Shown here: positions 1 to 34,456 of the stretch, piece after piece
Numbering within the stretch: the first letter of the stretch is position 1
Layout: every line of letters begins with the position of its first letter
IMG/VR virus record: IMGVR_UViG_3300033146_001169
Span: 1-35,893 of that record
Direction: 5' to 3' (one strand)
Length of the DNA: 35,893 nt
DNA from: a virus
Notes under the pieces: model-generated
Databases searched by the model: none
What the model saw: the letters and a program-made list of their open reading frames with translations, nothing else
Told to the model about the DNA's origin: nothing
Made by a program: the position numbers and the translations under genes

Positions 1-2132
1 GAAAGAGTTCGATCAAATTCTATTGTTTTTACATCAACATCATGAGTAATAACGAAAGAACTATATTCTCCTTCATCTAAACCAAGTATACTCATAAAAT
101 TCTCTATACCGTCTCCATCAAGAGAACCATCAAATATTTCATCAAAAATGATAATATTTGTAGCATTTCTTGATTTCTTGAGAGCTATCTCTCTCCATGT
201 AAATAATATTGCTAAATCAATTCTTGCTTTTTCTCCTTCAGAAAATGAATAATAACTAAAATCATTCCTGAATTTAGATTGAATTGTCTCATTAAAATTT
301 TCATCAAAAGTAAATTCAATAGGAAAATCAAATTTATCAAGATACATATTAACCGTTGCATTGATAATTGGCAAGAAATTTTTAATTATATTTGTTTTTA
401 TTCCATCATCTTTAAGAAGTTTCTGAGTAATCCCATAATAATACAAAAGCTGATTCTTTTTATCAAGTGATTCTTTCAAACTCTTAATCTGCTCTGCCAA
501 CTCATCAATATCTTCTTGAGTGACCGATGATGCTGGAGATTCTTTCAGAGATTTAAGTTCCTCATTGAGTCCATCTATTTTTTCCTTATACTGATTAATA
601 GCTTGCAAACATAATGCATAATTCTTCTCTGTTGTAATCAACTCATCTTTAACCTTGTTCATTTCTTTAACATCATCATCATACTTCTCAAGATCATCTC
701 TCAACTGTACCAATTCATCTTGATACTTCTTTTTTTCTCCTTTCATATTTTTAAGAACATCATCTGAAGTTATTTCAAATCCACAATCAAGAGAAACCTC
801 TTTCTCTTCTATTAATTTAATAGCAGCATCTTTTTTTATCTCAAAAGAAGATATATCTTGATTAATTTTTAATATTTTTTTATCAATTTCTTGAATTTTA
901 ATAATATCATTATCTATCCGAACCAATTCCGAAACCAATACATCTCGATCATTTTCATATTGTTTGATATCAGCATTTAATGAATCACAAGTAATATCAG
1001 TAAACTCATTTCCAATTTCTTGTCCACATTCCGGACAAGCATCAAATCGTTCATAAAATTCAAGTTTTTTATCTGCTTCATTAATTTTAGTATTAAAAAT
1101 TGCTATCTGTTCTCGTATCCAATCCCTTTTATCAATTGGACCAACCGTTTCCTTTTCTTTTTCCATCTCAGATCGGGTTTTAATAAGTTCGTCAAGAACA
1201 TCATTATATTTACCGACATCTTTCTTCAATGATAATATTTCTTCATTAATAGCCGTTATCTTAATATTTACATCTTCAGATGTTTCTATCTCTTCTTTTA
1301 ATACCCGAAGAGCCGATTCTTTATTCTGAATATAAATGTTAGCCTGACGAATAAGTTCTTCTGTTTTTACAAACTCCTCTATCTGATTTTTCAAATATTC
1401 AATAGAATCTTCAAATCCTTCTTTATCCATATAACGAAGACGGCTTTTTTCATTTACATCTTGAATATTCTCTTTCAAATCAGCAATACGTTTATTTCGT
1501 TTATCTACTGCCTCTTGAAAATACTCTCGTTTTGATTTATATCTTTCTTTAACCAAATCAATTTTATGTTTAACATCAACAATATCAGCTTTTAATTCTT
1601 TAATACCAGATTTTAATAAAGAGTTCATATCAGAAAATATAGAAATATCAAGTAAATTTTCTATAATTTCTCTCCGATCTCCAAGTTTAAGCTGCATAAA
1701 TGGTTTATAAGAAGCAGACCCAAGAATAATAATTTGAGTAAATGATTTATAATTAAGCTTCAGTATATCATTTTCAAGAATACATTGATAATCTGCTACC
1801 GTTGCTGGTTGAGGAATTAATTCATGATTAACAAAAATTTCAAATAATGATGGTTTCATCCCTCGATTAACAGTATACTCATTATTTCCAATAGAAAATT
1901 TAATACTAACGAGCAATCCTCGTTCGTTCACATTATTAATAAGCTGTCCAAGCCTTACCTTACGAAAGGGTTTTCCAAACAAACCATATACCAACGCATC
2001 AATAAAAGTAGATTTTCCATCTCCATTACGACCAGTCACAATGGTTGTTGATGTTTTATCTAAATCAATAGTAATTCCTTGATCTCCAGTAGAAAGGAAA
2101 TTTTCATACGAAATACTGTGAAATTTTATCAT
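1..2132 (-). CDS. 46: gp46-like recombination nuclease subunit (SbcC/Rad50 family), 3' end cut by window
   Basis: ATPase subunit of the T4 gp46/gp47 (Rad50/Mre11-type) complex that resects DNA ends for recombination-dependent replication. I translated it from the ATG at 2132-2130; about 710 codons are present and the frame is still open at base 1. Seen: Walker A GRNGDGKST (residues 34-42), long coiled-coil arms, a zinc-hook CPECGQ near residue 367, the ABC signature YSFSEGEKAR, and Walker B NIIIFDEIFDGS followed by an FVITHD switch motif. The visible end, FDRTL, suggests only a few residues are missing. It is longer than T4 gp46 (about 560 aa), mainly in the coiled coil. The ATG overlaps the stop of gene 47 by 4 nt (ATGA), so translation is probably coupled to its partner. 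Confidence 0.96.
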   Translation of the reverse strand, partial: MIKFHSISYENFLSTGDQGITIDLDKTSTTIVTGRNGDGKSTFIDALVYGLFGKPFRKVRLGQLINNVNERGLLVSIKFSIGNNEYTVNRGMKPSLFEIFVNHELIPQPATVADYQCILENDILKLNYKSFTQIIILGSASYKPFMQLKLGDRREIIENLLDISIFSDMNSLLKSGIKELKADIVDVKHKIDLVKERYKSKREYFQEAVDKRNKRIADLKENIQDVNEKSRLRYMDKEGFEDSIEYLKNQIEEFVKTEELIRQANIYIQNKESALRVLKEEIETSEDVNIKITAINEEILSLKKDVGKYNDVLDELIKTRSEMEKEKETVGPIDKRDWIREQIAIFNTKINEADKKLEFYERFDACPECGQEIGNEFTDITCDSLNADIKQYENDRDVLVSELVRIDNDIIKIQEIDKKILKINQDISSFEIKKDAAIKLIEEKEVSLDCGFEITSDDVLKNMKGEKKKYQDELVQLRDDLEKYDDDVKEMNKVKDELITTEKNYALCLQAINQYKEKIDGLNEELKSLKESPASSVTQEDIDELAEQIKSLKESLDKKNQLLYYYGITQKLLKDDGIKTNIIKNFLPIINATVNMYLDKFDFPIEFTFDENFNETIQSKFRNDFSYYSFSEGEKARIDLAILFTWREIALKKSRNATNIIIFDEIFDGSLDGDGIENFMSILGLDEGEYSSFVITHDVDVKTIEFDRTL

Positions 2133-3163
2133 TGTTCATTCGCCTTTTCATAAAGTTGTTTTAATATAGTCTGGATAACAAATTTATCATTCTTCGTTAA
2201 TCCTTCAATCTCATCAACAGATAATAATAAAATACTTAATGTATCCATATCATCATCTATATCATCTCCTATGGTATTAATATAAAGATGCTCTTCCTTA
2301 ATGTCAATTTCATGTGGACCGATTGATTCTAATTTACTGATAAATTCTTCAAAATCTTTTGGATCTTCCTTACTCTTAACTAAAATACGGATAATTTTAT
2401 CCTTACATTCTGATAAGTATAGTGATTTTTGTCCATCCGGTAATGGATATTCTATTTTAAAAAATATATCTTCACTTAAATATACATCCTCTGTTGTATC
2501 AAATTCTGTATCATAAATAATAATTCGTTTAGAATCATCATAATCAGACCAAGACATCTGATATGGCGAACCAACATAATATCTGGATTTTTTGTGAAAA
2601 TGTCCACTGAATACATGAGAATAATGTGAAAATATACCCGTATCAATACCCTTTTTTGAAACTCGTGTTCCTTGTTGTATAACTCCCATCATTTCAAAAT
2701 GTCCACAACATATTTCATCAGTAGATAATTGAATAATATCAGATATTTCTTCTCGCTGAATAGGGAATATCCAAGGAACCATTAACATTGACCGTCCACC
2801 AAGATTAATATGAGATAAACTATCAAAAACATATATATTTGGCTCTTTATCAAAGAGTAATTTAGTAGAAGAAAGTTCCCCATTAGATTTATAATAAGAA
2901 TCATGGTTTCCCATAAGAATATGAAGGGTTATTTCACTTTCTATCAATGGATTAATAAAACAATCCATTGCATGACGAAGAGTTTCAAAATTTACAGTCT
3001 TACGATTATCAAAAAAATCTCCAAGATGAATAATATTTTTAATATCATTTTTACGTAAATAAGGAAAAAAACAATCTTCATAAAATTTTCGTTGCACTTC
3101 CATAAAATATTTAGAGTTTTTTCTTGCTCCAAAATGAGTGTCAGCAATAATGGCAATTTTCAT
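2129..3163 (-). CDS. 47: gp47-like recombination endonuclease subunit (SbcD/Mre11 family)
   Basis: Metallophosphoesterase nuclease partner of gp46. The 344 residues (T4 gp47 is about 340) carry the phosphoesterase motifs in order: DTH (residues 8-10), GDFFD (48-52), GNHD (85-88), a CCGH motif and a late FSGHFHKK motif that completes the two-metal site. It starts one base after the stop of gene 55 and ends in a 4-nt overlap with gene 46, giving a tight 55-47-46 cluster as in many T4-like phages. The role is end resection in host cytoplasm, feeding UvsX/UvsY recombination. Confidence 0.96.
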   Translation of the reverse strand: MKIAIIADTHFGARKNSKYFMEVQRKFYEDCFFPYLRKNDIKNIIHLGDFFDNRKTVNFETLRHAMDCFINPLIESEITLHILMGNHDSYYKSNGELSSTKLLFDKEPNIYVFDSLSHINLGGRSMLMVPWIFPIQREEISDIIQLSTDEICCGHFEMMGVIQQGTRVSKKGIDTGIFSHYSHVFSGHFHKKSRYYVGSPYQMSWSDYDDSKRIIIYDTEFDTTEDVYLSEDIFFKIEYPLPDGQKSLYLSECKDKIIRILVKSKEDPKDFEEFISKLESIGPHEIDIKEEHLYINTIGDDIDDDMDTLSILLLSVDEIEGLTKNDKFVIQTILKQLYEKANEQ

Positions 3164-3164
3164 A

Positions 3165-3719
3165 TCAATATGGTTCTCCTTTTTGTATTAAATCAACAAC
3201 ACCATTTTTCTTTTTTGAAGTTTTCTTTATTTTTTCTTTTGGAAGTTCAACATTCATATCATCAAGTATTGATTGCATATAATCAACATATGTATTATAA
3301 TGTTTAACATCATTAGGACTATCAGCATCTAAAGCATCTCTGATTTCATCTTCTGCAAACATTTTTCTAATATATAATAAATGATCAATATGCCGCTTTT
3401 TTTCTTTTTTTATTCTACGCACAAAAGCATAATATGCAATAGTTGAAATATATCCAAATGCATTATTATATTTTATAGGATCAAAATTCTTGATATATCG
3501 AATACAATTCTCAATAGCGTCTCCAATCATATCTTCCTTATAAGTATAATTGATAAAGGAAGACTTATAACTCATGTTTGTACAGATCAGAAACACACAT
3601 TCTGCAATATAATCCGGCATTCTTTCCGGCTTTTCATCATTTTCAATTTGTTTTCTTACTCTACCAGCCCATTCACCCAATTCTTTTGTTAGTTTTTTGT
3701 TATCAACATAATCTGCCAT
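3165..3719 (-). CDS. 55: gp55-like late-transcription sigma factor
   Basis: Sigma factor that directs host RNA polymerase to late promoters (TATAAATA), normally helped by the sliding clamp. The 184 residues match T4 gp55 in length (185) and in its central region: an EDMIGDAIENCIRYIKNFDP block, then YNNAFGYISTIAYYAFVRRIKKEKK, here recognised in shorter pieces such as NFDPIKYNNAFGYI and AFVRRIKKEK, which line up with NFDETKYKNPHAYI and AFVQRIKKER of T4. The C-terminus (VVDLIQKGEPY) may play the part of the hydrophobic/acidic clamp-binding tail of T4 gp55. Its presence fits the several TATAAATA boxes found in this window. It abuts uvsW upstream without a gap. Confidence 0.95.
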   Translation of the reverse strand: MADYVDNKKLTKELGEWAGRVRKQIENDEKPERMPDYIAECVFLICTNMSYKSSFINYTYKEDMIGDAIENCIRYIKNFDPIKYNNAFGYISTIAYYAFVRRIKKEKKRHIDHLLYIRKMFAEDEIRDALDADSPNDVKHYNTYVDYMQSILDDMNVELPKEKIKKTSKKKNGVVDLIQKGEPY

Positions 3720-6502: not shown

Positions 6503-6742
6503 TTAATGTATCCTTGTATTTATTCTCATATTCATTAAAGTCGATATAATTTCTTCTGAGATATCCATACGATCTCTATAAGCAAAAAAATTTATCAAAT
6601 CACTTGCAGTAGCACCATTTAATATATATCCATATACATCATCATAAACATACATTTCTCCTATATTATTATCATCAACTGACATGATAATACTCGGAGA
6701 AATGGAAAATACTTTATTACTTTTATTACGTAATGATCCCAT
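6503..6742 (-). CDS. Hypothetical 79-aa late protein
   Basis: Unrecognised. The frame stays open upstream to an ATG at 6826, but that extension would read through the gene 23 terminator hairpin, so I place the start at the ATG 6742-6740 (protein begins MGSLRNKSNKVFS). A TATAAATA late box lies 5 nt upstream of this ATG and GGAGG about 13 nt upstream, an awkward spacing; a late transcript starting at the usual distance would be nearly leaderless, so a promoter further up or the read-through mRNA may be used. The protein is acidic in the middle (DDNNIGEMYVYDDVYGY) with a helical C-terminal half. Ends one base before the tail-tube-like gene. Confidence 0.6.
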   Translation of the reverse strand: MGSLRNKSNKVFSISPSIIMSVDDNNIGEMYVYDDVYGYILNGATASDLINFFAYRDRMDISEEIISTLMNMRINTRIH

Positions 6743-6747
6743 ATAAT

Positions 6748-6755
6748 TATTTATA
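6748..6755 (-). promoter_or_regulatory. Late promoter box TATAAATA
   Basis: Exact match on the minus strand to the T4 late promoter core recognised by gp55. It lies after the gene 23 terminator and before the 79-aa gene, and could supply late mRNA for the tail-tube-like gene. Confidence 0.65.
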
Positions 6756-6762
6756 CCTCCAC

Positions 6763-6794
6763 AAAAAAAGGGATATTCCAAAATGGAATACCCC
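6763..6794 (-). terminator. Rho-independent terminator after gene 23
   Basis: On the minus strand GGGGTATTCCA, loop TTT, TGGAATATCCC, then seven T. Stem of 11 bp with one G-U pair. It starts 38 nt after the major capsid stop codon, the classical place to end the abundant gene 23 mRNA. Confidence 0.9.
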
Positions 6795-6831
6795 TTTACT
6801 ATAACAGCTATTATTTCTTTCGTCAACCAGA

Positions 6832-11367: not shown

Positions 11368-11853
11368 TTATTGATTAAAATTTTTCTTAAAAGCTCTTAA
11401 TCCAATATCATATCCACCATTATCTAAATAATCTTTATATGCAATTTTCCATTCTTTATCACTCTGCGAAGATGTTCCTTTCTTAAAAGCTCTTAATCCA
11501 ATATCATATCCACCATTATCTAAATAATCTTTATATGCAATTTTCCATTCTTTATCATTTTTAGGATCTATATCACCTTTTTTACCATTTATAAGTCCAA
11601 GAAGTTCATTAATAATATCTTCGTTGATAGTTTTGGAAAATAAATAATCAAGAAGAACAGATTCACCTAAATCTCTTTCTCTTTTAAGAAGAGCAATAGC
11701 TTGCTTGACATGCTCATTATTTCCCGTATTAATACGTTCAAGCTCTTTTATAAGTTTATCAAATTTATCTTTATTTCTTGATTTTGTCTTTTCAGAGACA
11801 ATTGAAGAAAAATGACTCTCAAGCTTTTCTAATAAAATATCTTCGTTTTCCAT
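11368..11853 (-). CDS. 161-aa prohead-core-region protein with a duplicated C-terminal module
   Basis: Occupies the place of T4 genes 67/68 between portal and protease. N-terminal 110 residues are charged and helical and start MENEDILLEKLES, offering possible L-x-E sites. The C-terminus holds two copies of a ~26-residue unit (DKEWKIAYKDYLDNGGYD plus IGLRAFKK), period 32 residues. The two copies are identical at protein and DNA level over 78 bp, so the duplication is recent. The unit has no function I can name. A core protein is likely from position, but sequence similarity to gp68 is not evident to me. Confidence 0.75.
   Translation of the reverse strand: MENEDILLEKLESHFSSIVSEKTKSRNKDKFDKLIKELERINTGNNEHVKQAIALLKRERDLGESVLLDYLFSKTINEDIINELLGLINGKKGDIDPKNDKEWKIAYKDYLDNGGYDIGLRAFKKGTSSQSDKEWKIAYKDYLDNGGYDIGLRAFKKNFNQ
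11384..11557 (-). repeat. In-frame tandem duplication, period 96 bp
   Basis: Two 78-bp copies (11384-11461 and 11480-11557) without any mismatch, separated by an 18-bp non-repeated spacer. The period is 32 codons, so the reading frame is kept. Lies within the 161-aa gene. Confidence 0.95.
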
Positions 11854-12145: not shown

Positions 12146-12310
12146 TTATCTCCCAAAAATATCTCTTCCTACTTCTTTACGTTTATCCTGAATCATTCCC
12201 ATTACTCGTGAAGCAATTTCTTTATTAACAATATTTTTCAATTGAGATGGTTCTTTATTATTAATATGAGTAATAATTTGCTGTACATTATTTGCTTGTT
12301 CTTTTTTCAT
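12146..12310 (-). CDS. 54-aa protein, possible gp67-like core protein
   Basis: A short frame read directly from the sequence: begins MKKEQANNVQQIITHIN and ends KRKEVGRDIFGR. ATG overlaps the last base of the portal stop codon (TAATG), and ATCCTCC on the plus strand gives a good ribosome-binding site (GGAGGAT) in the portal 3' end. The pattern of its C-terminal half (IVNKEIASRVMGMIQDKRK) resembles the N-terminal helical part of T4 gp67, the small prohead core protein encoded directly after gene 20, but the acidic tail of gp67 is missing. Real gene likely, gp67 identity tentative. Confidence 0.7.
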   Translation of the reverse strand: MKKEQANNVQQIITHINNKEPSQLKNIVNKEIASRVMGMIQDKRKEVGRDIFGR

Positions 12311-13998
12311 TATTGATTATCCTCCTTTTTAACTGTTTGTGTTGCTGTTTTTTCCTTCGTCATTTTTTCTTCTTTTCGTTCATTTGCTCTTTCTTCTGGA
12401 GATGGAAAATCACTTTCTTCTGCATATGGACCATATGCACCCTGCTGTGCCATTATATCTTGACCAACATTACCAAAAGCCTGTGTTGTATCACGTTCTT
12501 CTTTTTCTTCATTACGCTGTTTCTCAAGTTCTTTAGCCTCTTCTTCTGTCTGCATCAAGATATTTGATCTGATATATTCCATAGAGTAATAACGTTCAAT
12601 CATCTGATCCATTGCTTCCACAACATCAATACGTTCTTTAAGCATTGCCAATTTCTTGAGTTCTGCAAAATGAGAATCTTCTTCCCATTGATACATGATA
12701 TGGGCTTCGATATTATCCCAATCATCAGAAGTAATAATCTTTTTCATTATAAGCTGTTTATATAACATATCAGAAAAAACACCACGAGAAAATCTACTAC
12801 GCAAACGATGAATAAATTTAGAAAATTTTACTTCTTCACGAGTAATTTCATTATCACGAGCAAGATTAAAAATAGAATTTTCACTATCAAGTCTTCCAAG
12901 AGGAACATTTAATGATTCATATAATTTATGTCTGAAATATGCAACATCATCCATTTCACCAAGATTATCTCCACCTTGAAGTGTATCAATTTCAGTACCC
13001 CGACCACCTTCTCTACGAGGCAACCAAAAGTCTTCAAGCATAGACATATATCGTTTTCCTTCATCAATTTGTCCTGTTTGTGTATTATACGCAATCTTAT
13101 TACGGTATCTATTCATAATAGAATTTAAATACTCTTCTGCTTTTGTTTTTGGAAGATTACCAACATCAATATAAAAAATACGTCTTTCAGGAGCACGCGC
13201 AACACGATATACAACAACAGAATCTTCCAACATAGCAAGTTGATTTGCTGGTTTAATTGCTTTATGAAGATGAGAAATAATCATCTTTCGTTGTGAATCC
13301 ATTAAACCAGAAGTTCCATAAGTAACAGATTCTTCTGTAAATTTAATAGCTTTTTCTAACTGAGAATAATTATAAGAACCAAGATGAGTTGCTTCTGTAA
13401 TTAAAGGAGGTTTATATACATAAAATATTTCAATATCTTCAATAATACCATCAGAATTTCTGGTTATATTTCTAATTTTCTTAATATAAAGAGAATCAAT
13501 ATGGACGATTTTTTGAATACCATCTTTAATTTTTTTTCCATCAATAATAAGATGAAAATAAATACGACCATCAATATACCACGATCTAAATAATTCATAT
13601 CCATAATCATTAAATTTCAGTAAATATAAGATATTATCAAATTCTTCAGCAATTTTTGTTTTTATTGATTCTGATAATTCAACATTATCCAAATTGATTT
13701 TTACAGGAAAAGGAACATTATCTTCATAAGTAACAGCATCATTAACAATTTCAGAAATAGCTTTATCAATTTCTGTACATTCAGCCATTTCTCGATAATT
13801 CTTAATTAAATTATATTCATCAGTATCAACAACACCAGAATCATAAACTTCAATAAAATGACCACCAAGAGGACCACTTGATATAATATCTCGCGTTCCT
13901 TCTTTATTTTCAGGAATTACTACCTGAACAACTCCTTTTTTATCATCCGGCGTATTCTTTTTTCTTTTTATTTCGAATCCAAACAATCCAAATCCCAT
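12310..13998 (-). CDS. 20: gp20-like portal vertex protein
   Basis: Twelve-subunit portal through which DNA is packed; docks terminase and neck. 562 residues (T4 gp20 524). Seen: the conserved NYREMAECTEIDKAISEIVN block, DYGYELFRSWYIDGR, a SGLMDSQRKMIISHLHKAIK region, MLEDSVVVYRVARAPERRIF and FWLPRREGGRGTEIDTLQGG, all hallmark gp20 stretches. The C-terminus has an extra charged, Gln/Glu-rich tail. Ribosome-binding site AAGGAGAGG 5 nt before the ATG. Preceded by a leader with two hairpins. Confidence 0.97.
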   Translation of the reverse strand: MGFGLFGFEIKRKKNTPDDKKGVVQVVIPENKEGTRDIISSGPLGGHFIEVYDSGVVDTDEYNLIKNYREMAECTEIDKAISEIVNDAVTYEDNVPFPVKINLDNVELSESIKTKIAEEFDNILYLLKFNDYGYELFRSWYIDGRIYFHLIIDGKKIKDGIQKIVHIDSLYIKKIRNITRNSDGIIEDIEIFYVYKPPLITEATHLGSYNYSQLEKAIKFTEESVTYGTSGLMDSQRKMIISHLHKAIKPANQLAMLEDSVVVYRVARAPERRIFYIDVGNLPKTKAEEYLNSIMNRYRNKIAYNTQTGQIDEGKRYMSMLEDFWLPRREGGRGTEIDTLQGGDNLGEMDDVAYFRHKLYESLNVPLGRLDSENSIFNLARDNEITREEVKFSKFIHRLRSRFSRGVFSDMLYKQLIMKKIITSDDWDNIEAHIMYQWEEDSHFAELKKLAMLKERIDVVEAMDQMIERYYSMEYIRSNILMQTEEEAKELEKQRNEEKEERDTTQAFGNVGQDIMAQQGAYGPYAEESDFPSPEERANERKEEKMTKEKTATQTVKKEDNQ

Positions 13999-14035
13999 AT
14001 CCTCTCCTTAAAAAACGATTTTTATAAATAATACT

Positions 14036-14068
14036 GTAGGTTGTCTTTAACTCCTTTTAGCAACCTAC
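14036..14068 (-). other. Leader hairpin before gene 20
   Basis: GTAGGTTG and CAACCTAC form a perfect 8-bp stem around a 17-nt loop that contains AAAAGGAG. It lies between the terminator-like hairpin and the gene 20 ribosome-binding site. Confidence 0.7.
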
Positions 14069-14100
14069 AAAAAAGGGGGAAAGTCAGTATGATTTCCCCC
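14069..14100 (-). terminator. Rho-independent terminator-like hairpin upstream of gene 20
   Basis: Minus strand GGGGGAAA, 10-nt loop, TTTCCCCC, followed by six T. Perfect 8-bp stem with five G-C pairs. It ends transcripts of the 19-73aa-91aa genes ahead of gene 20, but also sits at the expected start of transcripts from the late box at 14106-14113. Confidence 0.85.
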
Positions 14101-14105
14101 TTTCC

Positions 14106-14113
14106 TATTTATA
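14106..14113 (-). promoter_or_regulatory. Late promoter box ahead of gene 20
   Basis: Exact TATAAATA on the minus strand. A transcript starting 5-7 nt downstream would begin in the terminator-like stem, giving gene 20 a ~100-nt leader with two hairpins. It may be used only inefficiently. Confidence 0.55.
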
Positions 14114-14128
14114 TTTATTCATTACGAA

Positions 14129-14404
14129 TTATTCATCATTATCAATATCAACATCTTTTTTTACCTTCTTTGTTGTTTTCTTTTTTGATGTAGATACTTT
14201 TTTCTTTTTTGTGGATGTTTGTCTTTTTTCTGTAATATTTTTTTCCTTTTTAGGGATATATGTTACACCAGACATACATTGTATTACTACTTCTTGACCG
14301 TCTGGTTGTACTCTTACCCATCCTCGTGCATCTCCTATTATAGAAGACTTACCAGTTCCATCTTTTAACATCCAATCATTTGGTTGTGTTTTTGAAGTTC
14401 CCAT
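14129..14404 (-). CDS. Hypothetical 91-aa protein with Lys-rich tail
   Basis: Residues 1-55 form a small beta-rich domain (KTQPNDWMLKDGTGKSSIIG, ARGWVRVQPDGQEVVIQCMS, GVTYIP); the last ~35 residues are a Lys/Thr/Ser-rich tail (TSTKKKKVSTSKKKTTKK) ending DVDIDNDE. The globular part looks like small structural proteins that T4-like phages of other hosts carry near the tail tube, but I cannot name it. A basic tail suggests contact with DNA or RNA. It is followed by the terminator before gene 20. Confidence 0.7.
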   Translation of the reverse strand: MGTSKTQPNDWMLKDGTGKSSIIGDARGWVRVQPDGQEVVIQCMSGVTYIPKKEKNITEKRQTSTKKKKVSTSKKKTTKKVKKDVDIDNDE

Positions 14405-14660: not shown

Positions 14661-15167
14661 TTATGTAGTCTCTGCGGATTCCCAATAATTGTAATTAAAT
14701 GTAACCTCAAATTCCTCTACTTCATCGTTAGCATCAAAAGCAAGATCAATAGGAGCAAGCATTGTTGGAAACATATCTACAATATGATATGAATACAATT
14801 CTGCCCCATCTCTACCAAGCTGTGTAACCTGAGCATCTGAATATACATCACGAACACTTGCAAAACCAAGATTATCCTGATGTCCATTAATAGCATTCAT
14901 CCAAGATTCGACCAAACGACGAATTTCAAAATCTGTATCATTAAAAACAGTTACAGTCCATTCTTCAAAAATTCTATTACCCGGCACTTTAATTTGACGA
15001 CCAAGATAAGGAACATCAATTGCTTCTACATTAGATGCAGGAAGACTTGATGCCTTACAAAGAAATTCTAATTTACCACCAAGTTTTTCAGCTCTAACTT
15101 TATATAAATTAGGTCTTGCTCCTGAAATGAAAAAACCTTTAAAATCATTAATATTAAGTGATTCCAT
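14661..15167 (-). CDS. 19: gp19-like tail tube protein
   Basis: Forms the inner tube of the contractile tail. 168 residues (T4 gp19 163). Recognised: the N-terminal ANLYKV-type strand (RPNLYKVRAEKLGG), CKASSLPASNVEAIDVPYLG, RQIKVPGNRIFEEWTVTVFN, WMNAINGHQDNLGF, and the C-terminal VDMFPTMLAPIDLAFD motif followed by VEEFEVTFNYNYWE. Directly after the sheath gene, as in T4. Confidence 0.95.
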   Translation of the reverse strand: MESLNINDFKGFFISGARPNLYKVRAEKLGGKLEFLCKASSLPASNVEAIDVPYLGRQIKVPGNRIFEEWTVTVFNDTDFEIRRLVESWMNAINGHQDNLGFASVRDVYSDAQVTQLGRDGAELYSYHIVDMFPTMLAPIDLAFDANDEVEEFEVTFNYNYWESAETT

Positions 15168-15237: not shown

Positions 15238-17715
15238 TTATCCAAATTGACCAATGATTTCATCAAAAACAACACCTGTTCCAGTAGCAACAAAGTTCAA
15301 AGTGATAAAGTTAATTGATCTTGCAGGTTTAATATAAATATCTCCAACAAATGCATTATTATCAATAACAAACGGTGTATTGTTTGTTTCATCACACACA
15401 ACTTTAAAGTCATAAATACCACGTCTTCCCTGAACGTCACGAAGATAAGGCTCTACCATTTGAACAAAACGAAGTCTTGTAAAAGTGTCGTTAAATTCGA
15501 AAAGAAGATACTTAGCGGCCTTCGCAATAGCTTTTTCAAGTACAATGAACAATCTACGAACATTGATACGATCAAAAGCTGAAGGTTGAGTAAGCATTGT
15601 TCTATCACCATAAAGAAGTGTTCCCTCACCAAACATTGAAACAACCGGATTAATAGAATTCGGATACATCTCATCACGAGCTGTTCTATTTGGATTCCAT
15701 GCAAGTTTTACACAATTTTTAATATGTCCACGATTATAACCAGCAGGAGACCACCATGGATCACGAGTTTCATCAGTTCTCGCACAAAGACCAGCAATAT
15801 CACCATTACATGCTACCCAACGAAATGTATCATTATATGTATCAAACTGATATTTCCAGTTACAATCAAATACACCATAAGAACTGGAAGGAAGAACATT
15901 ACGTTGACGCATAAGAGCATCAAGTTCACGATCTTTATTATGAATAACACCAACACCAACACCTCCAGAATTTAATGCTTCTGGAGAAATAAATGCTACA
16001 CAATCTTTACGAAATTCTGCAACATTCTGAATAACGAAATCTTGAAGAACACGATCAGCAGGGCCGGTAATAAGTAAACTAATATCAATTTCTTCCACAT
16101 TATTAAAAAGTTCCCATCCCGGAATAAGTTCATTATTAGAAGGAATATTTCCAGAAGCACCATTAGCAAGTGTAACTGCTACAGGTTCTGTAAGAGATTC
16201 GAAATCTCTATCTTGTGCAAGATTACCCCATGCACCCGGTCCAGATTCCATTCCTTGAGGATAATTACCAAACCAAACATATTTAGAACGATCACGAAGA
16301 ACATAAGGATAAAAAGAACTTGTTCCGTCATCATATACAGCATCCTGTGCTTTAGAACAGAACGCATAACGTTCAAGAATACGTCCTTTATCGCCAGTTA
16401 CTTGACCTGTCCCATCAACTACTACTATATGAAGACCATCATTAGTTCCATTTTTCTTTCTTACGTATTCTGTAGTTTTTGGGATTGTAAGGAATTGATC
16501 GTAATACATCCAAAGAGATGCTTCAGCTTCAGCAGTTTCTTCTTGAGTAATGATAGGAGGATCAATAGTAAATCCTTCTGTTCCGTCATATCCATAACCA
16601 GCATTTGTGATATTAATATTTGTTACAACACCATTTGTAATAGCAAGTGTCGCCAATGCATTAGTTACTGTATTATTAGGAACATCAACTGTAGCTGTTG
16701 GAGATCCTGTATATCCAGTTCCCCCATTAGTAATAGATACAGCAGTAATTACTCCGTCAACAACAGTATCTATCTGAGCTGTTGCTCCAGTTCCTGCTCC
16801 AGAAATTGTAATTGCTTCAGTTCCATCATAACCATAACCCCCGTCAACAAGAGTAATACTGTCAATAGCATCACCATCAGTTGTTACAGTAACAGCAGCA
16901 GTTGAGTTTGTTTTTGAAGGAGCATCTATTGTAATTGATTCTGTTCCATCATATCCACTTCCACCATCTGTTATAGCAAAACTATCAACAATTTCATTAG
17001 CAACAGTCATATCTGCTGTTGCTTGTGTTCCTTGAGATGTAGCGGGAGCAGGAATTGTTACTTCTGGTGGATTACGATATCCATAACCATTAGTAGTTAT
17101 TTCTATTTCTGTTACTTGACCTGTAACATCATCTACTGTTTTAATTGTTCCTTCTGCTGTAGTTCCACCATCAAAAGGAGCAGTAAAAATTACAGATCTT
17201 CCTACATCATCAGCAGTTGTATAACCAGTTCCTCCATTGGTTACTTTAACAGACCATACAGCAGAGAAAGTATCTTCATCTGCCATATGAATCTCAATAC
17301 CATTTGCGACAACAGATGGATAACGACCAGCAAATTGACCCCAATCATTTCCAGATGGAATAGAATGATTATCCTGCCAATCATTAATATTTTTAATAAC
17401 AACCGGAGAAGCAGGAGTTGCAGTGCTATCATAAGCATTTTGTGCTCCTTCACCCACAACACGAACAACTTTTAAATTTCTGGAATAATCCAAAAAGTTC
17501 TTTGCACAGAACCAATATCCAAAGTTTTCATCAGTAGGTCTTCCGTATTGTCTAACTAATGCTTCTTCATCAGAGACATAAGAAAATTTTTCTAATGGTC
17601 CCCACTCAAAAGCACCTACGATTGCAGCTCCAGCAGTAGCGACTTGGGGAATAATTTGAGTTAAATCCCATTCTCTTACAGTTACGCCCGGAGACAACAT
17701 AAATGACATGCCCAT
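15238..17715 (-). CDS. 18: gp18-like tail sheath protein with a repeat insertion
   Basis: Contractile sheath protein. 825 residues against 659 in T4. N-terminus SPGVTVREWDLTQIIPQVAT and the C-terminal core (RNVLPSSSYGVFDCNWKYQ, GYNRGHIKNCVKLAWNPN, INVRRLFIVLEKAIAKAAKY, FNDTFTRLRFVQMVEPYLRD, GRRGIYDFKVVCDETNN) are typical. Between roughly residues 155 and 390 an extra domain contains six copies of a [DN]-[GA]-G-x-G-Y motif followed by a beta strand. This accounts for the added length and likely projects from the sheath surface. Late promoter box at 17780-17787. Confidence 0.96.
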   Translation of the reverse strand: MGMSFMLSPGVTVREWDLTQIIPQVATAGAAIVGAFEWGPLEKFSYVSDEEALVRQYGRPTDENFGYWFCAKNFLDYSRNLKVVRVVGEGAQNAYDSTATPASPVVIKNINDWQDNHSIPSGNDWGQFAGRYPSVVANGIEIHMADEDTFSAVWSVKVTNGGTGYTTADDVGRSVIFTAPFDGGTTAEGTIKTVDDVTGQVTEIEITTNGYGYRNPPEVTIPAPATSQGTQATADMTVANEIVDSFAITDGGSGYDGTESITIDAPSKTNSTAAVTVTTDGDAIDSITLVDGGYGYDGTEAITISGAGTGATAQIDTVVDGVITAVSITNGGTGYTGSPTATVDVPNNTVTNALATLAITNGVVTNINITNAGYGYDGTEGFTIDPPIITQEETAEAEASLWMYYDQFLTIPKTTEYVRKKNGTNDGLHIVVVDGTGQVTGDKGRILERYAFCSKAQDAVYDDGTSSFYPYVLRDRSKYVWFGNYPQGMESGPGAWGNLAQDRDFESLTEPVAVTLANGASGNIPSNNELIPGWELFNNVEEIDISLLITGPADRVLQDFVIQNVAEFRKDCVAFISPEALNSGGVGVGVIHNKDRELDALMRQRNVLPSSSYGVFDCNWKYQFDTYNDTFRWVACNGDIAGLCARTDETRDPWWSPAGYNRGHIKNCVKLAWNPNRTARDEMYPNSINPVVSMFGEGTLLYGDRTMLTQPSAFDRINVRRLFIVLEKAIAKAAKYLLFEFNDTFTRLRFVQMVEPYLRDVQGRRGIYDFKVVCDETNNTPFVIDNNAFVGDIYIKPARSINFITLNFVATGTGVVFDEIIGQFG
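16555..17255 (-). repeat. Degenerate GGxGY repeat array inside the tail sheath gene
   Basis: Six motif copies in order: NGGTGYT, TNGYGYRNPP, DGGSGYDGT, DGGYGYDGT, NGGTGYTGSP, NAGYGYDGT, most followed by a short strand such as ESITI or EAITI. Spacing is 30-55 residues. Similar Gly-Tyr repeats occur in other phage tail proteins. Confidence 0.85.
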
Positions 17716-17805: not shown

Positions 17806-17833
17806 TTGACATTCTATTAAAATAGTGTATAAT
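17806..17833 (+). promoter_or_regulatory. Strong sigma70 (early) promoter
   Basis: TTGACA, 16-nt spacer, TATAAT: both hexamers are perfect. It drives the plus-strand gene at 17871. Confidence 0.92.
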
Positions 17834-17870: not shown

Positions 17871-18173
17871 ATGGGATTTAAAAAAGAGAAAAAATGTTTT
17901 TTTGTTTGTTTAACGAATCCTTTTTTTCCTGATGTAGTTTTTCTTGTAGTAAAAGAAAAAGGATCAGAAATCATTCTTAAACATGACAAAGTTCCTACAA
18001 AGTTTGATATTTTATTTAAACTTCCTATTAATAAAGGAAGAGAAAATAAAATGAAAGAACTTGTAGAAGATCTTAAATACACAGAATTTCATATAGTTGG
18101 GAATTTTTTTAAAAAAGAAATTCTTAACGCTATAGTAGAAATCAATGAAAATAAAACTGTAATAAAAATCTAA
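17871..18173 (+). CDS. Early protein, possible degenerate GIY-YIG (T5orf172-type) domain
   Basis: A 100-residue protein from a perfect early promoter with ribosome-binding site GGAG 5 nt before the ATG. The pattern FFVCLTNPFFPDVVFLVV, then HDKVPTKFDILFKLPIN, KMKELVEDLKYTEFHIVGNF parallels T5orf172-type GIY-YIG domains (N-P-x-x-P-x-x-x-K-I-G ... G-V-P-T-P-F-x-x-x-Y ... E-F-F). The catalytic features, the K-I-G after the first strand and the following Arg, are not present, so it would be a non-catalytic relative or a false match. The gene is convergent with gene 17 and overlaps its stop codon by 3 nt. The only plus-strand gene between 17 and 18; probably a host-takeover or regulatory protein. 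Confidence 0.8.
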   Translation: MGFKKEKKCFFVCLTNPFFPDVVFLVVKEKGSEIILKHDKVPTKFDILFKLPINKGRENKMKELVEDLKYTEFHIVGNFFKKEILNAIVEINENKTVIKI

Positions 18174-27476: not shown

Positions 27477-27672
27477 ATATAAATATCATTTCTTGATAAT
27501 TAATTTCTTGATAATTTCGTTTCCCATATAGACATTATCTCTTATATGTAAATTTCTTGATAATTTCGTTTCCCATATAAATATCATTTCTTGATAATTA
27601 ATTTCTTGATAATTTCGTTTCCCATATAGACATTATCTCTTATATGTAAATCTCTTGATAATTTCATATAAG
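27477..27672. repeat. 98-bp direct tandem repeat, two copies, with TATAAATA boxes
   Basis: Copy one 27477-27574 and copy two 27575-27672, matching over about 90 bp with a single T-to-C change and then diverging at the end. Each copy holds three TTCTTGATAATT elements, TTTCCCATATAGACATTATC and a plus-strand TATAAATA (27478-27485 and 27576-27583). No gene lies on either strand. It could be a replication origin, a tandem regulatory region, or a source of a noncoding late transcript running toward gene 15. Confidence 0.9.
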
Positions 27673-28677: not shown

Positions 28678-30585
28678 CTATTGTATTTCGTTAGTTTTTC
28701 CAAATTTTCTGTGAAATTCTTCAAGATCTTCTATTATGCAATCAATAAAAATACATCCTTCTGCTTTATCAAGATTTTCTGGATAAATCATACAATCTTT
28801 AAATGCACAATTTATAAATGAATTTCCTGCTGGAGTAATTCTTTCAAATCTACTGTTTCTTATATTTCCAAGATCAAAATCTTTAAATTTTTTATTTTTA
28901 TCTTTTGTTACCATTGAAATATTATTTGCTCTTATTGAAAAATCAGGAAATGAAGCAGATAAATTTGAAATATTATCAATAAGAAAATGACCACCTTTTA
29001 TTTCTGAATCATATATAGGCATTAAATTTCCAAATTTTATCATACATTCTAATATATCACAAAAGAAAAATTCAAATTGATTAATTTTATCATCAATATA
29101 TTTTATTGTACAATTGTCAAATTTTATTTTAATTTCTTCAGGAATCTTTAATTTTCTTAAAAGAACAAAATCTACATAAGCATTTTCAATAGAAAAATAA
29201 TTTTCTTTTTTATATGTGAGTATTATATTTCCTTTTTTTCCTTTTAGATGTCCTCCTTCAATCATATGATATAATGTAATAAGAAAATCTTTATATCTTG
29301 ACCATAAATCAGCTTTGTAATTTTTTTGCATACTATTTAAATCAATTTCTGAAAATACATTTTCGATTATATCTTCTTCATTCCATGCAGATGGAGCTAT
29401 AATTTTTCTTCTTCCATGTTTATCAATTCCTTTTTCCCATGATCCATCTTTCCATGTTCCTCCTTCCCATGTTCCATCTTTCCATACTCCTTTATGCCAT
29501 ATACCATTTTCCCATGTTCCATCTCTCCACATTCCACCATACCAATCTCCTGATTTCCAAATACCATTATGCCACATACCGTCACGCCATACACCATTTC
29601 TCCAGATTCCAGTTTCCCATATTCCTTTTATCCATTCACCATCTTCCCATATTCCACTATCCCATGATCCACGATGCCATATACCATTTTTCCAAATTCC
29701 ATCTTCCCACCATCCATCATACCATTCTCCTGCTTCCCATGTTCCATCATACCATTCACCGTTTTTCCATACTCCTTTTTTCCATATTCCTTTTTTCCAG
29801 ATTCCATTTTCCCAAACACCACCATACCACGTACCTTTCTCCCATATAACACCGTTTAAAGATTCATCATAATGATAAATAGCATCATCACTTGACTTTA
29901 TTTCTTTTACCCAATCAGGAATGCTTTCTAATTGTTGTATTTCTCGTATTTCATCATATATTTTTCCCATATTTTTTTTAAGTAATTCTTTTTTTATAGA
30001 AAATCCCGGAATAGGTTCTTTAATATGTAAAGCACTATCTTCTCTATTAAATTTATCCCACACTTCATAATTATGATTGTCTTCAAGAATCATAACTACC
30101 CATTTATTATATCCATTTGTTATATAAACAGGAACTTTTTGCTCATCAATTACATGATCTTTCCAATAACTCTTATCATCAGACCAACCAATGCAATAAT
30201 TTACATCAATAGATCCATAACGACATGAATTCATATATTGAGCTGTTTTCCAATTAAGAGGAACATTTGCTATATAATCTTTATTTTTTATATGAATAGG
30301 CCAATAATCAATACCTTTTTTACCGGGAACATTTGAAACTTTAAGAAGCATTTTTCGACCAATTTTATAATCAGTCATAAAATTATAAAAATCCTTCCAT
30401 TCCATATTTTGAACTTTTTTTGATTGCCAACCATAATCAGTTTCAAATTTTCTGCTGGCTGGTTTATTTTTAGTAAAAAATTTATTAATTGTGTTTTTTT
30501 GAGATTTAGAAAGATTATCATTCTTTTTTAAAAATCGTTCCACACTCTTTGCTTCTAATATAATATATTCTGTAAATGCTTTCAT
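28678..30585 (-). CDS. Predicted ejected head protein, cargo family member E (28 W-x-x-G-x pentads plus beta-helix-like end)
   Basis: 635 residues, the largest family member. Tag MKAFTEYIILE with I-L-E at 9-11. Family domain to ~225: FLKKNDNLSKSQKNTINKFF, YGWQSKKVQNMEWKDFYNFM, YMNSCRYGSIDVNYCIGW with Cys131, HVIDEQKVPVYITNGYNKW, IKEPIPGFSIKKELL. Residues 248-387 are 28 uninterrupted pentads (for example WKKGVWKNGEWYDGTWEAGE). The C-terminal ~240 residues resemble the strand/Cys arrays of members C and D (FFFCDILECMIKFGNLMPIY, SFINCAFKDCMIYPENLDKA). It thus joins both C-terminal module types in one protein. Between gene 15 and the 2H phosphoesterase gene. Confidence 0.88.
   Translation of the reverse strand: MKAFTEYIILEAKSVERFLKKNDNLSKSQKNTINKFFTKNKPASRKFETDYGWQSKKVQNMEWKDFYNFMTDYKIGRKMLLKVSNVPGKKGIDYWPIHIKNKDYIANVPLNWKTAQYMNSCRYGSIDVNYCIGWSDDKSYWKDHVIDEQKVPVYITNGYNKWVVMILEDNHNYEVWDKFNREDSALHIKEPIPGFSIKKELLKKNMGKIYDEIREIQQLESIPDWVKEIKSSDDAIYHYDESLNGVIWEKGTWYGGVWENGIWKKGIWKKGVWKNGEWYDGTWEAGEWYDGWWEDGIWKNGIWHRGSWDSGIWEDGEWIKGIWETGIWRNGVWRDGMWHNGIWKSGDWYGGMWRDGTWENGIWHKGVWKDGTWEGGTWKDGSWEKGIDKHGRRKIIAPSAWNEEDIIENVFSEIDLNSMQKNYKADLWSRYKDFLITLYHMIEGGHLKGKKGNIILTYKKENYFSIENAYVDFVLLRKLKIPEEIKIKFDNCTIKYIDDKINQFEFFFCDILECMIKFGNLMPIYDSEIKGGHFLIDNISNLSASFPDFSIRANNISMVTKDKNKKFKDFDLGNIRNSRFERITPAGNSFINCAFKDCMIYPENLDKAEGCIFIDCIIEDLEEFHRKFGKTNEIQ
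29425..29844 (-). repeat. 15-bp / W-x-x-G-x repeat array, 28 units
   Basis: Tandem 15-bp units encoding W-x-x-G-x without interruption; W and G are invariant, position 2 is mostly K, E, Y, H or R, position 3 mostly D, N or K, position 5 mostly I, T, V or E. Confidence 0.95.
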
Positions 30586-31952: not shown

Positions 31953-33362
31953 TTACCATTTATCTGGTGAATCATCTTCTTCATGCCAATTTCTGTATTG
32001 ATCATATCCGCCTTTCCATTTACCACCAAGCCAGTTTCCTGTTACCCATGTTCCATTTTTCCATGTTCCATCATGCCATGTTCCATCTTTCCATACTCCT
32101 TTATGCCATATACCATTTTCCCATATTCCATCTTTCCATAAACCATCATACCATTCACCATCTTCCCATGTTCCATTATACCATGTTCCATCTTCCCATC
32201 TTCCTCTATACCATTCACCATCATACCATTCACCATCATACCATATTCCACCGTTCCACGTTCCTTTATACCATTTTCCATATTCCCATATTCCATCTTC
32301 CCATGTTCCATTATACCATGTTCCATCTTTCCATTTACCATATTCCCATACACCATCTACCCATGTTCCATCTTCCCATTTACCATTTTCCCATTTACCA
32401 TTTTCCCATTCACCATTTTCCCATACACCATCTACCCATGTTCCATTTTCCCATGTTCCATCTTCCCATTCACCATCTTCCCATGTTCCATTATACCATG
32501 TTCCATCTTCCCATTTTCCATATTCCCATTTACCATTTTCCCATTTACCATTTTCCCATGTTCCGTCTTTCCATAAACCACCTTTCCATTTACCACCAAG
32601 CCAGTTTCCTATTATCCATAATCCACCATGCCATAATCCATCACGCCATGTTCCTTTTTCCCATGTTCCATTATACCATATAACTTCTTCACTATTAATA
32701 ATTTCATATTTAGCATTTTTTATTAATGCTTTGTCTATCCAATGTTGGTTTTTAACAGAACTCCATGATTTATTAATTATGTTTTTATTCCTTTTAATTA
32801 TAGAAAATACATTTATATTTGGAACAGATTTAATTTTATTATCTTCTTTATTCCATATCTTTATATTTTTAAAATCATTAGATATTTGTAATGCATATTT
32901 TTCAAATCCATCATAACTAATAAGAAATATGAATATGTGATTTTCTGTATATGAGTTCCAATAACTAATATTTTTTTGATATGCAACACACCATTCTCCT
33001 GTGCATTTTCCAATATAATTATTAGCTATATGTTTTGATGCTTCCCATGATAAAGGCATATATGCGTAATATCCGGGAAATAAATAAGAAAGGTCTATAT
33101 AATCTATTTTTTCTCGAAGACCACGGATTCCTTTTTTCTTAATCAATTTTTTAGTTTTTGATTTAGAAGGAGAATGAATAATATATTGGAAATCTGTAAT
33201 ATTTAATTTTTTATTATTCCAATCTATCTCTTCTTCTTTATGTGGGTTTTTTTTAAAAAAGTCGATAAGTTGTTTCTTTTCATCTCTATTGAGTTTACGA
33301 AGTTTGTTAATTTTTGATTTAACATCTTCTATTATGATATTATATGATTTAAATCTTTGCAT
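31953..33362 (-). CDS. Predicted ejected head protein, cargo family member F (45 W-x-x-G-x pentads)
   Basis: 469 residues. Start MQRFKSYNIIIE is a variant tag with I-I-E at 10-12. Diverged family domain: LRKLNRDEKKQLIDFFKKNP, IDWNNKKLNITDFQ, YYAYMPLSWEASKHIANN, YIGKCTGEWCVAYQKNISYW with Cys125, IFLISYDGFEKYALQI, IKSVPNINVFSII. The W-C-V motif followed by a Lys-Tyr-x-x-x-I strand resembles a domain widespread in phage proteins with a W-C-[TV]-[AS] core, which I cannot name. Residues 229-453 are 45 perfect pentads, then a 16-residue end DQYRNWHEEDDSPDKW shared with member G. Confidence 0.87.
   Translation of the reverse strand: MQRFKSYNIIIEDVKSKINKLRKLNRDEKKQLIDFFKKNPHKEEEIDWNNKKLNITDFQYIIHSPSKSKTKKLIKKKGIRGLREKIDYIDLSYLFPGYYAYMPLSWEASKHIANNYIGKCTGEWCVAYQKNISYWNSYTENHIFIFLISYDGFEKYALQISNDFKNIKIWNKEDNKIKSVPNINVFSIIKRNKNIINKSWSSVKNQHWIDKALIKNAKYEIINSEEVIWYNGTWEKGTWRDGLWHGGLWIIGNWLGGKWKGGLWKDGTWENGKWENGKWEYGKWEDGTWYNGTWEDGEWEDGTWENGTWVDGVWENGEWENGKWENGKWEDGTWVDGVWEYGKWKDGTWYNGTWEDGIWEYGKWYKGTWNGGIWYDGEWYDGEWYRGRWEDGTWYNGTWEDGEWYDGLWKDGIWENGIWHKGVWKDGTWHDGTWKNGTWVTGNWLGGKWKGGYDQYRNWHEEDDSPDKW
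32004..32678 (-). repeat. 15-bp / W-x-x-G-x repeat array, 45 units
   Basis: Forty-five in-frame 15-bp units with no insertion. Higher-order copies are visible: for instance WENGKWENGKWE and WEDGTWVDGVWE blocks recur, and the DNA reads as repeated TTCCCAT/TACCATT words, so unit gain and loss by slippage or recombination is likely. Confidence 0.95.
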
Positions 33363-33373
33363 TTTTTCTTATT

Positions 33374-34456
33374 TTACCATTTATCTGGTGAATCATCTTC
33401 TTCATGCCAATTTTTGTATTGATCATATCCGCCTTTCCATTTACCACCAAGCCAGTTTCCTGTTACCCATAAGCCACCATGCCATGTTCCATCTTCCCAA
33501 ATACCATCATGCCATATTCCATATAACCAGTCACCATTTTCCCATGTTCCGCCTTTGTGATAACCAAAGACCCATAATCCATCCCACCAAATGCTATCGT
33601 CATCATCTCCTTCCCATGTTCCATATTCCCATTTACCTTTTTCCCATAAACCACCTTTCCATAATCCATCACGCCATGTTCCTTTTTTCCATGTTCCGTA
33701 TTCCCATACACCATCTACCCATATACCATTGAGCCATGTTCCATTTTTCCAATGAATAGTATTATTTGATGTAACTTCATAATCAGCATCAATTACTTTT
33801 GCTTTACTAAACCATTTAACTGTTTTATGTTTTTCTGTTTTAATTTTATTTCTATATGATATTATTTCTCGTTTATTGTTCTGAATAACACTAACAACAT
33901 TTTCATGAGGAACAGACTTAATTTCATCTCCTTTAGAATCATAGATTTCTACATCCATAAGTCTGTCATGAGTTGCGGCAGCATATTTTTTCTTTCCATC
34001 AGGAGATACAAGAATAATAATTACTACTCCTTGACGAGCATAATCATTCCAAGATGCCGGACGATTTCCTGAAGTACACCATTTTCCTTCACATTTTCCA
34101 ATATATTCTGTTCCAAACATTTGAGATGCAATATGATTAAGAGGAATATATGCATTGTAATAATCAAACATATAAGATATATCAACATAATCTTTTCCTT
34201 CTTTTAATCCTTTAAGCCCGTGTTTTTTTACATCTTTTTTAATTTTTCTTGATGATCTTTTATTCATTACATCTTTAAAATCAGAAAAGACAAGATTTCT
34301 ATTATTCCAATCAATTCCTCCCGATTTTCCTTCAAGATGAGGGTTTTGTTGAAAAAATTTAATGAGTTCGTTTCGTTCTTTACTTGAGAGGTTTTTTAAT
34401 CGTCTAAGTTTTGATTTAATATCTTCTGACAGTATATATAATTTAAACGGTTTCAT
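33374..34456 (-). CDS. Predicted ejected head protein, cargo family member G (about 21 W-x-x-G-x pentads)
   Basis: 360 residues. Start MKPFKLYILSE with L-S-E at 9-11. Family domain: LRRLKNLSSKERNELIKFFQ, GIDWNNRNLVFSDFKDV, YYNAYIPLNHIASQMFG, YIGKCEGKWCTSGNRPASWN with Cys127, GVVIIILVSPDGKKKYAAAT. Pentads span 236-344, broken once by an acidic insert (WEGDDDDSI) and once with His replacing Trp (HKGGT). The final ~32 residues and their ~100 bp of DNA are almost identical to member F, showing recent duplication or gene conversion. Ribosome-binding site weak (AAAGGAT far upstream). Follows gene 13. Confidence 0.87.
   Translation of the reverse strand: MKPFKLYILSEDIKSKLRRLKNLSSKERNELIKFFQQNPHLEGKSGGIDWNNRNLVFSDFKDVMNKRSSRKIKKDVKKHGLKGLKEGKDYVDISYMFDYYNAYIPLNHIASQMFGTEYIGKCEGKWCTSGNRPASWNDYARQGVVIIILVSPDGKKKYAAATHDRLMDVEIYDSKGDEIKSVPHENVVSVIQNNKREIISYRNKIKTEKHKTVKWFSKAKVIDADYEVTSNNTIHWKNGTWLNGIWVDGVWEYGTWKKGTWRDGLWKGGLWEKGKWEYGTWEGDDDDSIWWDGLWVFGYHKGGTWENGDWLYGIWHDGIWEDGTWHGGLWVTGNWLGGKWKGGYDQYKNWHEEDDSPDKW
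33425..33751 (-). repeat. 15-bp / W-x-x-G-x repeat array, about 21 units
   Basis: Twenty regular 15-bp units plus one 27-bp unit carrying an Asp-rich insert. The last three units and the following 16 codons match the end of the neighbouring array. Confidence 0.92.

Follow-up and report, generated by a model that had tools for sequence, protein, structure and literature searches.

How T4-like phages hold the portal protein far below the capsid protein is, to our knowledge, not settled. The DNA just upstream of the portal gene analyzed here raises the question of whether a small RNA, transcribed away from that gene, takes part in setting its dose. The window is a whole IMG/VR virus record of 35,893 bases, and control of portal dose is a plausible purpose of the element described below.

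The junction between genes 19 and 20

The minus strand of the window carries T4-like late genes: terminase 17, sheath 18, tube 19, two small genes, portal 20, protease 21, scaffold and the major head protein. Gene 20 (12310–13998, minus strand; Pfam Portal_T4, E = 9.7e-164) starts with the ATG at 13998, and the closest portal proteins of cultured phages, at about 48% identity, are from Synechococcus phages. Gene 19, encoding the tail tube protein (14661–15167, minus strand), matches Pfam Phage_T4_gp19 with an E value of 3e-6 and 27.5 bits, just below the cut-off of 28.2, and relatives of it were found. The two small genes between 19 and 20 have no Pfam or PHROG match; the one upstream of the element (14129–14404, minus strand) has relatives in L082 and L083. 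The leader DNA of gene 20 gave short matches only (11 records) when compared with cultured phage records.

Read on the minus strand toward gene 20, the order is a late box, an 11-bp hairpin (hp1) followed by six U, an 8-bp hairpin (hp2), the conserved stretch ATTATTTATAA, the ribosome-binding site AAGGAG (14003–14008) and the ATG. The first-pass annotation had described a late box, a terminator hairpin with a U-tract, a second hairpin with AAGGAG in its loop and the real ribosome-binding site, and all of them are present. So is the facing TATAAATA that it placed on the plus strand at 14023–14030; ATTATTTATAA is this plus-strand late box read in reverse.

Seven sequences were compared: the window, L082, L083, L122 (a partial contig), L193 (a 156,943-base contig), L334 and L345. 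L349, 26% identical, was excluded. Seven sequences are few, and L082 and L334 are identical in hp2. A pattern scan with the terminator and the facing box alone, every match of which was listed, recovered the other six, and the remaining matches look unrelated by eye. Three loci of apparently similar layout (L360, L367 and L383) were dropped, their neighbouring genes not being T4-like in appearance. In bacterial genomes, all 24 matches to the hairpin plus loop lacked the perfect stem of at least 8 bp found in the phages (best 5). A scan for gene 19 gave 20 loci, six of which lie on the same contigs as the relatives of the gene 20 element. L122 also has, between genes 18 and 19, a 525-codon open frame from stop to stop (1680–3254), which the window lacks and which matches nothing in Pfam; it looks like an inserted gene.

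Other features of the window were observed. Between genes 17 and 18, nt 17806–17833 of the plus strand match a sigma-70-type promoter in 12 of 12 positions (TTGACA-16-TATAAT), followed by a plus-strand ORF (17871–18173) that matches nothing in Pfam or PHROG. Taken as a class, promoter-like sites show no excess in the window (54, shuffled mean 69). Repeats include two near-identical 98-base tandem units at 27477–27665, each with TATAAATA, and a long array of 15/60-base repeats at 32045–32595, with similar arrays at 29426–29814 and 33474–33751. A perfect tandem repeat of period 96 and 1.8 copies (11383–11557) lies inside the small gene 11368–11853, where it duplicates about 26 residues near the C-terminus.

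The facing late box

In T4, late boxes occupy positions −13 to −6 (PMC1524935). The facing box (14023–14030, plus strand; extended form TATAAATAATACTG) has the T4-type late promoter sequence TATAAATA, scores 17.4 with a late-promoter matrix and is kept in all seven sequences. Of all the sites found on the two strands of the window it takes sixth place, and it is the top site of the plus strand. The matrix was built from 17 of 26 sites upstream of genes in the group and gave leave-one-out scores of 5.0–18.8; because the sites were picked by eye, it leans to the consensus. It omits two sites of the gene 20 element, three lying no more than 9 nt from a start codon, one 17-mer present in duplicate and three further sites. 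The late boxes upstream of genes in this group share TATAAATAATAATR, as judged by eye.

In the relatives the facing box scores 19.1 (L193, L122 and L345), 18.2 (L083) and 13.5 (L082 and L334). The forward box, which points into gene 20, scores 8.8 or 11.4 in the window, depending on its position (see below), and 11.7–14.0 in five relatives; L345 has none. The two boxes are about equal in L082 and L334, at 13.5 for the facing box versus 13.9 and 11.7 for the forward one. The 8-mer TATAAATA alone is not rare, with 15 copies in the window against a shuffled mean of 9.5 and at least 15 copies in 6 of 100 shuffles. In 20 single strands of window length simulated with a Markov background, no site equalled the facing box.

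A search of about 180 nt at each of 80 distant gene 20 loci found no exact facing box TATTTATA, a few of these loci (e.g. L004 and L035) having less than 100 nt upstream. The exact forward box was found in 25 of the 80. The presence of the facing box in 7/7 sequences versus 0/80 distant loci makes it a mark of the window's group. It is also missing from the ten leaders scanned among the 14 other gene 19 loci (L500, L507, L509 and L510 left out). We predict that the facing box is a late promoter, which the phage sigma gp55 would use in late infection.

The predicted antisense RNA and its 5′ hairpin

Given the T4 box position, the RNA would start at nt 14036, which is the first base of hp2. Relative to the predicted RNA start, hp2 begins at +1 in the window and L193, +2 in L082 and L334, +3 in L345, +4 in L122 and +7 in L083. 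The predicted late antisense small RNA spans nt 14036–14107 of the plus strand, its start being placed 13 nt past the first T of the box and its 3′ end being approximate, and it measures about 70 nt up to the U-tract. Across the seven sequences the plus-strand RNA would consist of a 5′ hairpin and the terminator, 76–91 nt as cut. In the window, the RNA of nt 14036–14110 is predicted to fold into two hairpins (z = −5.25), and none of 200 shuffles was as stable. A covariance model matches nt 14035–14113 of the plus strand with an E value of 3.9e-18, the window being in its training set. No Rfam family reached its gathering score, the best sub-threshold score being 22.3 versus 50. Judged by sequence and conservation only, the predicted RNA has the arrangement of a cis-antisense RNA, with its own promoter opposite the leader of its target. 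The suggestion in the first-pass annotation that the facing box could make an antisense RNA is thus its best-supported claim, given the conservation of the box, its rank and a predicted start at the hairpin.

Six of the secondary matches of the covariance model were inspected as candidates for further copies. Those at G001 120000 and 15769, G003 10591, G004 1160 and window 6761 are terminator-like hairpins; at G005 3566, upstream of gene 19, a hairpin follows a late box.

Hp2 (14036–14068) forms the 5′ hairpin of the antisense RNA and is also present in the sense leader. It has a perfect 8-bp stem, nt 14036–14043 pairing with 14061–14068. The stems vary among the relatives, with both sides changed in 8/8 pairs and 55 of 56 cells paired (98.2%), a result equalled in none of 500 shuffles. 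In the eight counted pairs no change is confined to one side, and pairing is therefore equally good on the two strands.

The 17-nt loop (14044–14060) reads UCUUUAACUCCUUUUAG on the plus strand and is anti-Shine-Dalgarno-like; on the sense strand it reads CUAAAAGGAGUUAAAGA, with AAGGAG. Despite the differing stems, AAAAGGAGNTAAAG is found in the loop of six of the seven sequences, and the seventh, L345, has AAAAAGGAAGGAAAA. The sense-strand loop is Shine-Dalgarno-like in all seven. Viewed from the antisense strand, the loop is a conserved unpaired CU-rich motif, as in Yfr1, constant in 6/7 and pyrimidine-only in the seventh. Separately, the antisense loop appears by eye able to pair almost completely with the 5′ arm of the terminator in the same RNA (14070–14083, plus strand; AAAAGGGGGAAAG), and such pairing may allow an antiterminator fold.

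The terminator hairpin and the question of strand

Hp1 (14072–14103) is a perfect 11-bp hairpin, AAAGGGGGAAA/TTTCCCCCTTT, in which nt 14072–14082 pair with 14093–14103. It can form on both strands and is present in 7/7 sequences. It has the GC-rich stem and U-tract of a rho-independent terminator. The sense tail is six U on the minus-strand RNA (14074–14069). The antisense tail is U-rich, though interrupted, in the window (UUUCCUAUUUA) and is UUUUUU in L345. L345, which is without the forward box, keeps the antisense box and the six-U antisense tail, and its sense U-tract is interrupted. A standard terminator scan of the window did not report hp1, probably because the scan allows loops up to 8 nt and the hp1 loop is 10 nt.

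The only other strong terminator of the window lies at 6797–6767, after the major head gene. In that region (6740–6800, minus strand) a forward late box, TATAAATAATTATATG, comes directly after the terminator hairpin.

G–U pairs in hp1 number four on the antisense strand versus four on the sense strand. Three antisense and none of the sense pairs are interior, leaving one and four, respectively, at the base or apex. The antisense pairs lie inside the stem in L082, L334 and L083 and at the base in L122; the sense pairs lie at the base in the window, L082 and L083, and at the apex in L083. With equal counts over the full stem, most of the evidence for a strand falls away. The predicted stability of hp1 favours the antisense strand in 5/7 sequences by 0.2–4.6 kcal/mol and the sense strand in the window (1.3 kcal/mol) and L193 (0.9 kcal/mol). 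For hp2, the antisense strand is better by 0.5–0.6 in five of six distinct stems and the sense strand by 1.7 in L083.

The sense leader and distant T4-like phages

The forward late box TATAAATA of the first-pass annotation exists at 14106–14113 (minus strand, score 8.8). The forward boxes of the relatives end 8–14 nt ahead of AGGGG, and this spacing points instead to the overlapping AATAAATA at 14119–14112 (minus strand), with the higher score of 11.4. Attenuation of gene 20 transcripts from the forward box, as proposed there, is possible; however, this box is the weaker of the two in the window and, present in 6/7 sequences, is missing in one relative.

The minus-strand leader has a better predicted fold than 199 of 200 shuffles (z = −3.4). 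Sequestration of the ribosome-binding site of the T4 gene e type was not found in hp1 and hp2, which end upstream of the gp20 site; a small separate stem is predicted over that site. Tiny frames after the Shine-Dalgarno-like loop begin with ATG in L082, L334, L083 and L122 and with GTG in L345, and the YYYL residues common to them arise because they are derived from the facing promoter sequence.

A hairpin behind a late box is not confined to the window's group. Once duplicates are removed, the 25 box-bearing distant loci yield 23 distinct exact boxes upstream of gene 20, and in eight of these a hairpin of at least 7 bp starts 1–8 nt past the box, a pattern that had been noticed in these same loci before it was counted. 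The layout is absent from the 107 other exact boxes that these loci carry on the same strand, and it occurs in none of 500 shuffles. Two more distinct examples ahead of gene 20 are provided by L502/L503 and L504–L506. Ahead of gene 19 the layout is found in L137 (reverse strand), L082 (3401), L334 (3562–3600) and L193 (2179), which are 4 of 24 sites outside the gene 20 element, and the window has a weak version at 15239 on the minus strand. By inspection the distant gene 20 hairpins are mostly without a U-tract, so most of them may be 5′-end stabilisers or ends of upstream RNA, not attenuators. The recurrence of the box-then-hairpin layout means that it is in general not necessarily an attenuator.

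Proposed function

We tentatively favour, at a little under an even chance, the reading that the interval joins the terminator of the upstream genes to a small late plus-strand transcription unit, which runs antisense to the gene 20 leader. What the comparison supports is a conserved promoter sequence, a covarying hairpin, a conserved loop and a terminator hairpin; the making of an antisense RNA, and all of its effects, we infer. The late RNA polymerase would start at the plus-strand late box, the RNA would begin around nt 14036 with a 5′-terminal hairpin, and it would end at the shared terminator as a stable transcript of about 70 nt. For sense transcription, this terminator would cut readthrough from the upstream genes and the RNA from the weak forward box. 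The antisense RNA would most likely lower gene 20 output in cis. Its loop would pair with that of the sense leader, to which it is complementary, the hairpins would zip up, and the duplex would then be cut or the leader lost. Collision of the converging polymerases could aid the reduction. The antisense RNA does not reach the ribosome-binding site of gene 20, so a simple translation block is unlikely.

The cis duplex alone does not account for the constancy of the loop. An alternative is that the antisense RNA acts in trans late in infection, its anti-Shine-Dalgarno-like loop pairing with ribosome-binding sites on host mRNAs or on other mRNAs of the phage. The loop is indeed the conserved part and the stems are free to vary, the L083 loop holds ACCUCCUUUU, and the L345 loop stays pyrimidine-only (UUUUCCUUCCUUUUU). 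There is a precedent in Yfr1/Yfr10, where a changed UCCU abolished target binding (PMC6778093). The window has nine near-matches to the sense loop with at most two mismatches, against a shuffled mean of 2.8, and 0/100 shuffles reached nine. However, only two of the nine lie at a possible start (26807, plus strand; 34464, minus strand) and five are within genes. With at most three mismatches, the 156,943-base record has eight matches versus 17 for a reversed control pattern. A duplex scan of late-strand starts in six records identified no target common to the relatives. Gene 20 itself ranked 4/38, 1/13, 8/8, 6/7, 4/18 and 5/8 in that scan, and a start beyond the 1% background appeared in L389 only, not in the other records. 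We consider a trans-acting RNA unlikely. Cis control of portal dose is the most likely role of the predicted RNA and blocking of ribosome-binding sites in trans a less likely one. We are equally doubtful that the RNA founds a new family of late phage small RNAs, whose loop resembles the 16S anti-Shine-Dalgarno sequence and which would act on portal dose in cis while occupying ribosome-binding sites in trans. If that were true, one portal ring per head would be secured by control in both cis and trans.

A further possibility is that the sense strand alone matters. Hp1 would be the gene 19 terminator, hp2 would serve as a decoy or standby ribosome site or as a protein-binding operator, and the facing box would be unused. 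This agrees with the Shine-Dalgarno-like sense loop, with the hairpins behind late boxes ahead of gene 20 in distant phages and of gene 19 in four relatives, and with the two hairpins that T4 and RB69 likewise have between genes 19 and 20. The G–U counts are compatible with it. It leaves unexplained a late promoter on the opposite strand that is conserved and phased to the hairpin in 7/7 sequences, in a place where T4 has a forward late box instead. The version with a leader peptide fails, the window and L193 having by inspection no ATG, GTG or TTG after the loop. We regard the sense-only function as improbable, to about the same degree as action in trans.

Much less probable is an ordinary junction, with a terminator between two units and neutral or remnant late boxes around it. 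T4-like phages do have a conserved bidirectional terminator downstream of uvsW.1, as described in PMC1524935, and the 8-mer TATAAATA is frequent in this AT-rich genome. The compensatory changes in all eight hp2 pairs and the constant loop disfavour this explanation, as does the Markov background, which gave no equal of the facing box. Least probable of all is that the inverted repeats act as DNA, as cruciforms or protein-binding palindromes in, for example, recombination or packaging, since the lack of one-sided changes in hp2 would suit this but the strand-specific G–U pairs of hp1, the promoter phasing and the U-tracts are features of RNA.

Comparison with known systems

A conserved antisense RNA at gene 20 would offer a direct, testable handle on portal dose, and a T4-type late promoter that drives a non-coding RNA would be unusual. 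In the literature searched, which lay mostly outside subscription journals, no antisense RNA or antisense late promoter was reported at gene 20, including in the accessible part of PMC9964418. According to a review (PMC2984593), CfrI of cyanophage S-PM2 was the first such RNA to be reported in T4-like phages. This detected RNA of about 225 nt lies opposite psbA and a homing endonuclease gene and is believed to be involved in regulating the genes it faces. The RNA of the window would resemble it as an antisense RNA of a T4-like phage; in contrast to CfrI, it would be about 70 nt, lies at gene 20 and is predicted only.

Yfr1/Yfr10 share with the predicted RNA a constant unpaired motif, UCCU in their case, which Yfr10 carries in a hairpin loop amid poorly conserved sequence (PMC6778093). 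They differ in being cyanobacterial and trans-acting, and the motif is not the same. The leaders of T4 gene e and I-TevI (PMC3014915) also combine a late promoter with a leader hairpin. In those leaders the promoter is sense and lies inside the hairpin, which masks the ribosome-binding site, whereas in the window the site lies outside hp1 and hp2 and the better promoter is antisense.

The gene 19–20 junction of T4 and RB69 is similar in its two hairpins after gene 19 and a late box some 30 nt upstream of gene 20. Their box points into gene 20, whereas that of the window's group points away. CopA/CopT and RNAI/RNAII, which control plasmid copy number, are cis-antisense pairs with complementary hairpin loops. 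The predicted sense and antisense hairpins at gene 20 would likewise present complementary loops to each other.
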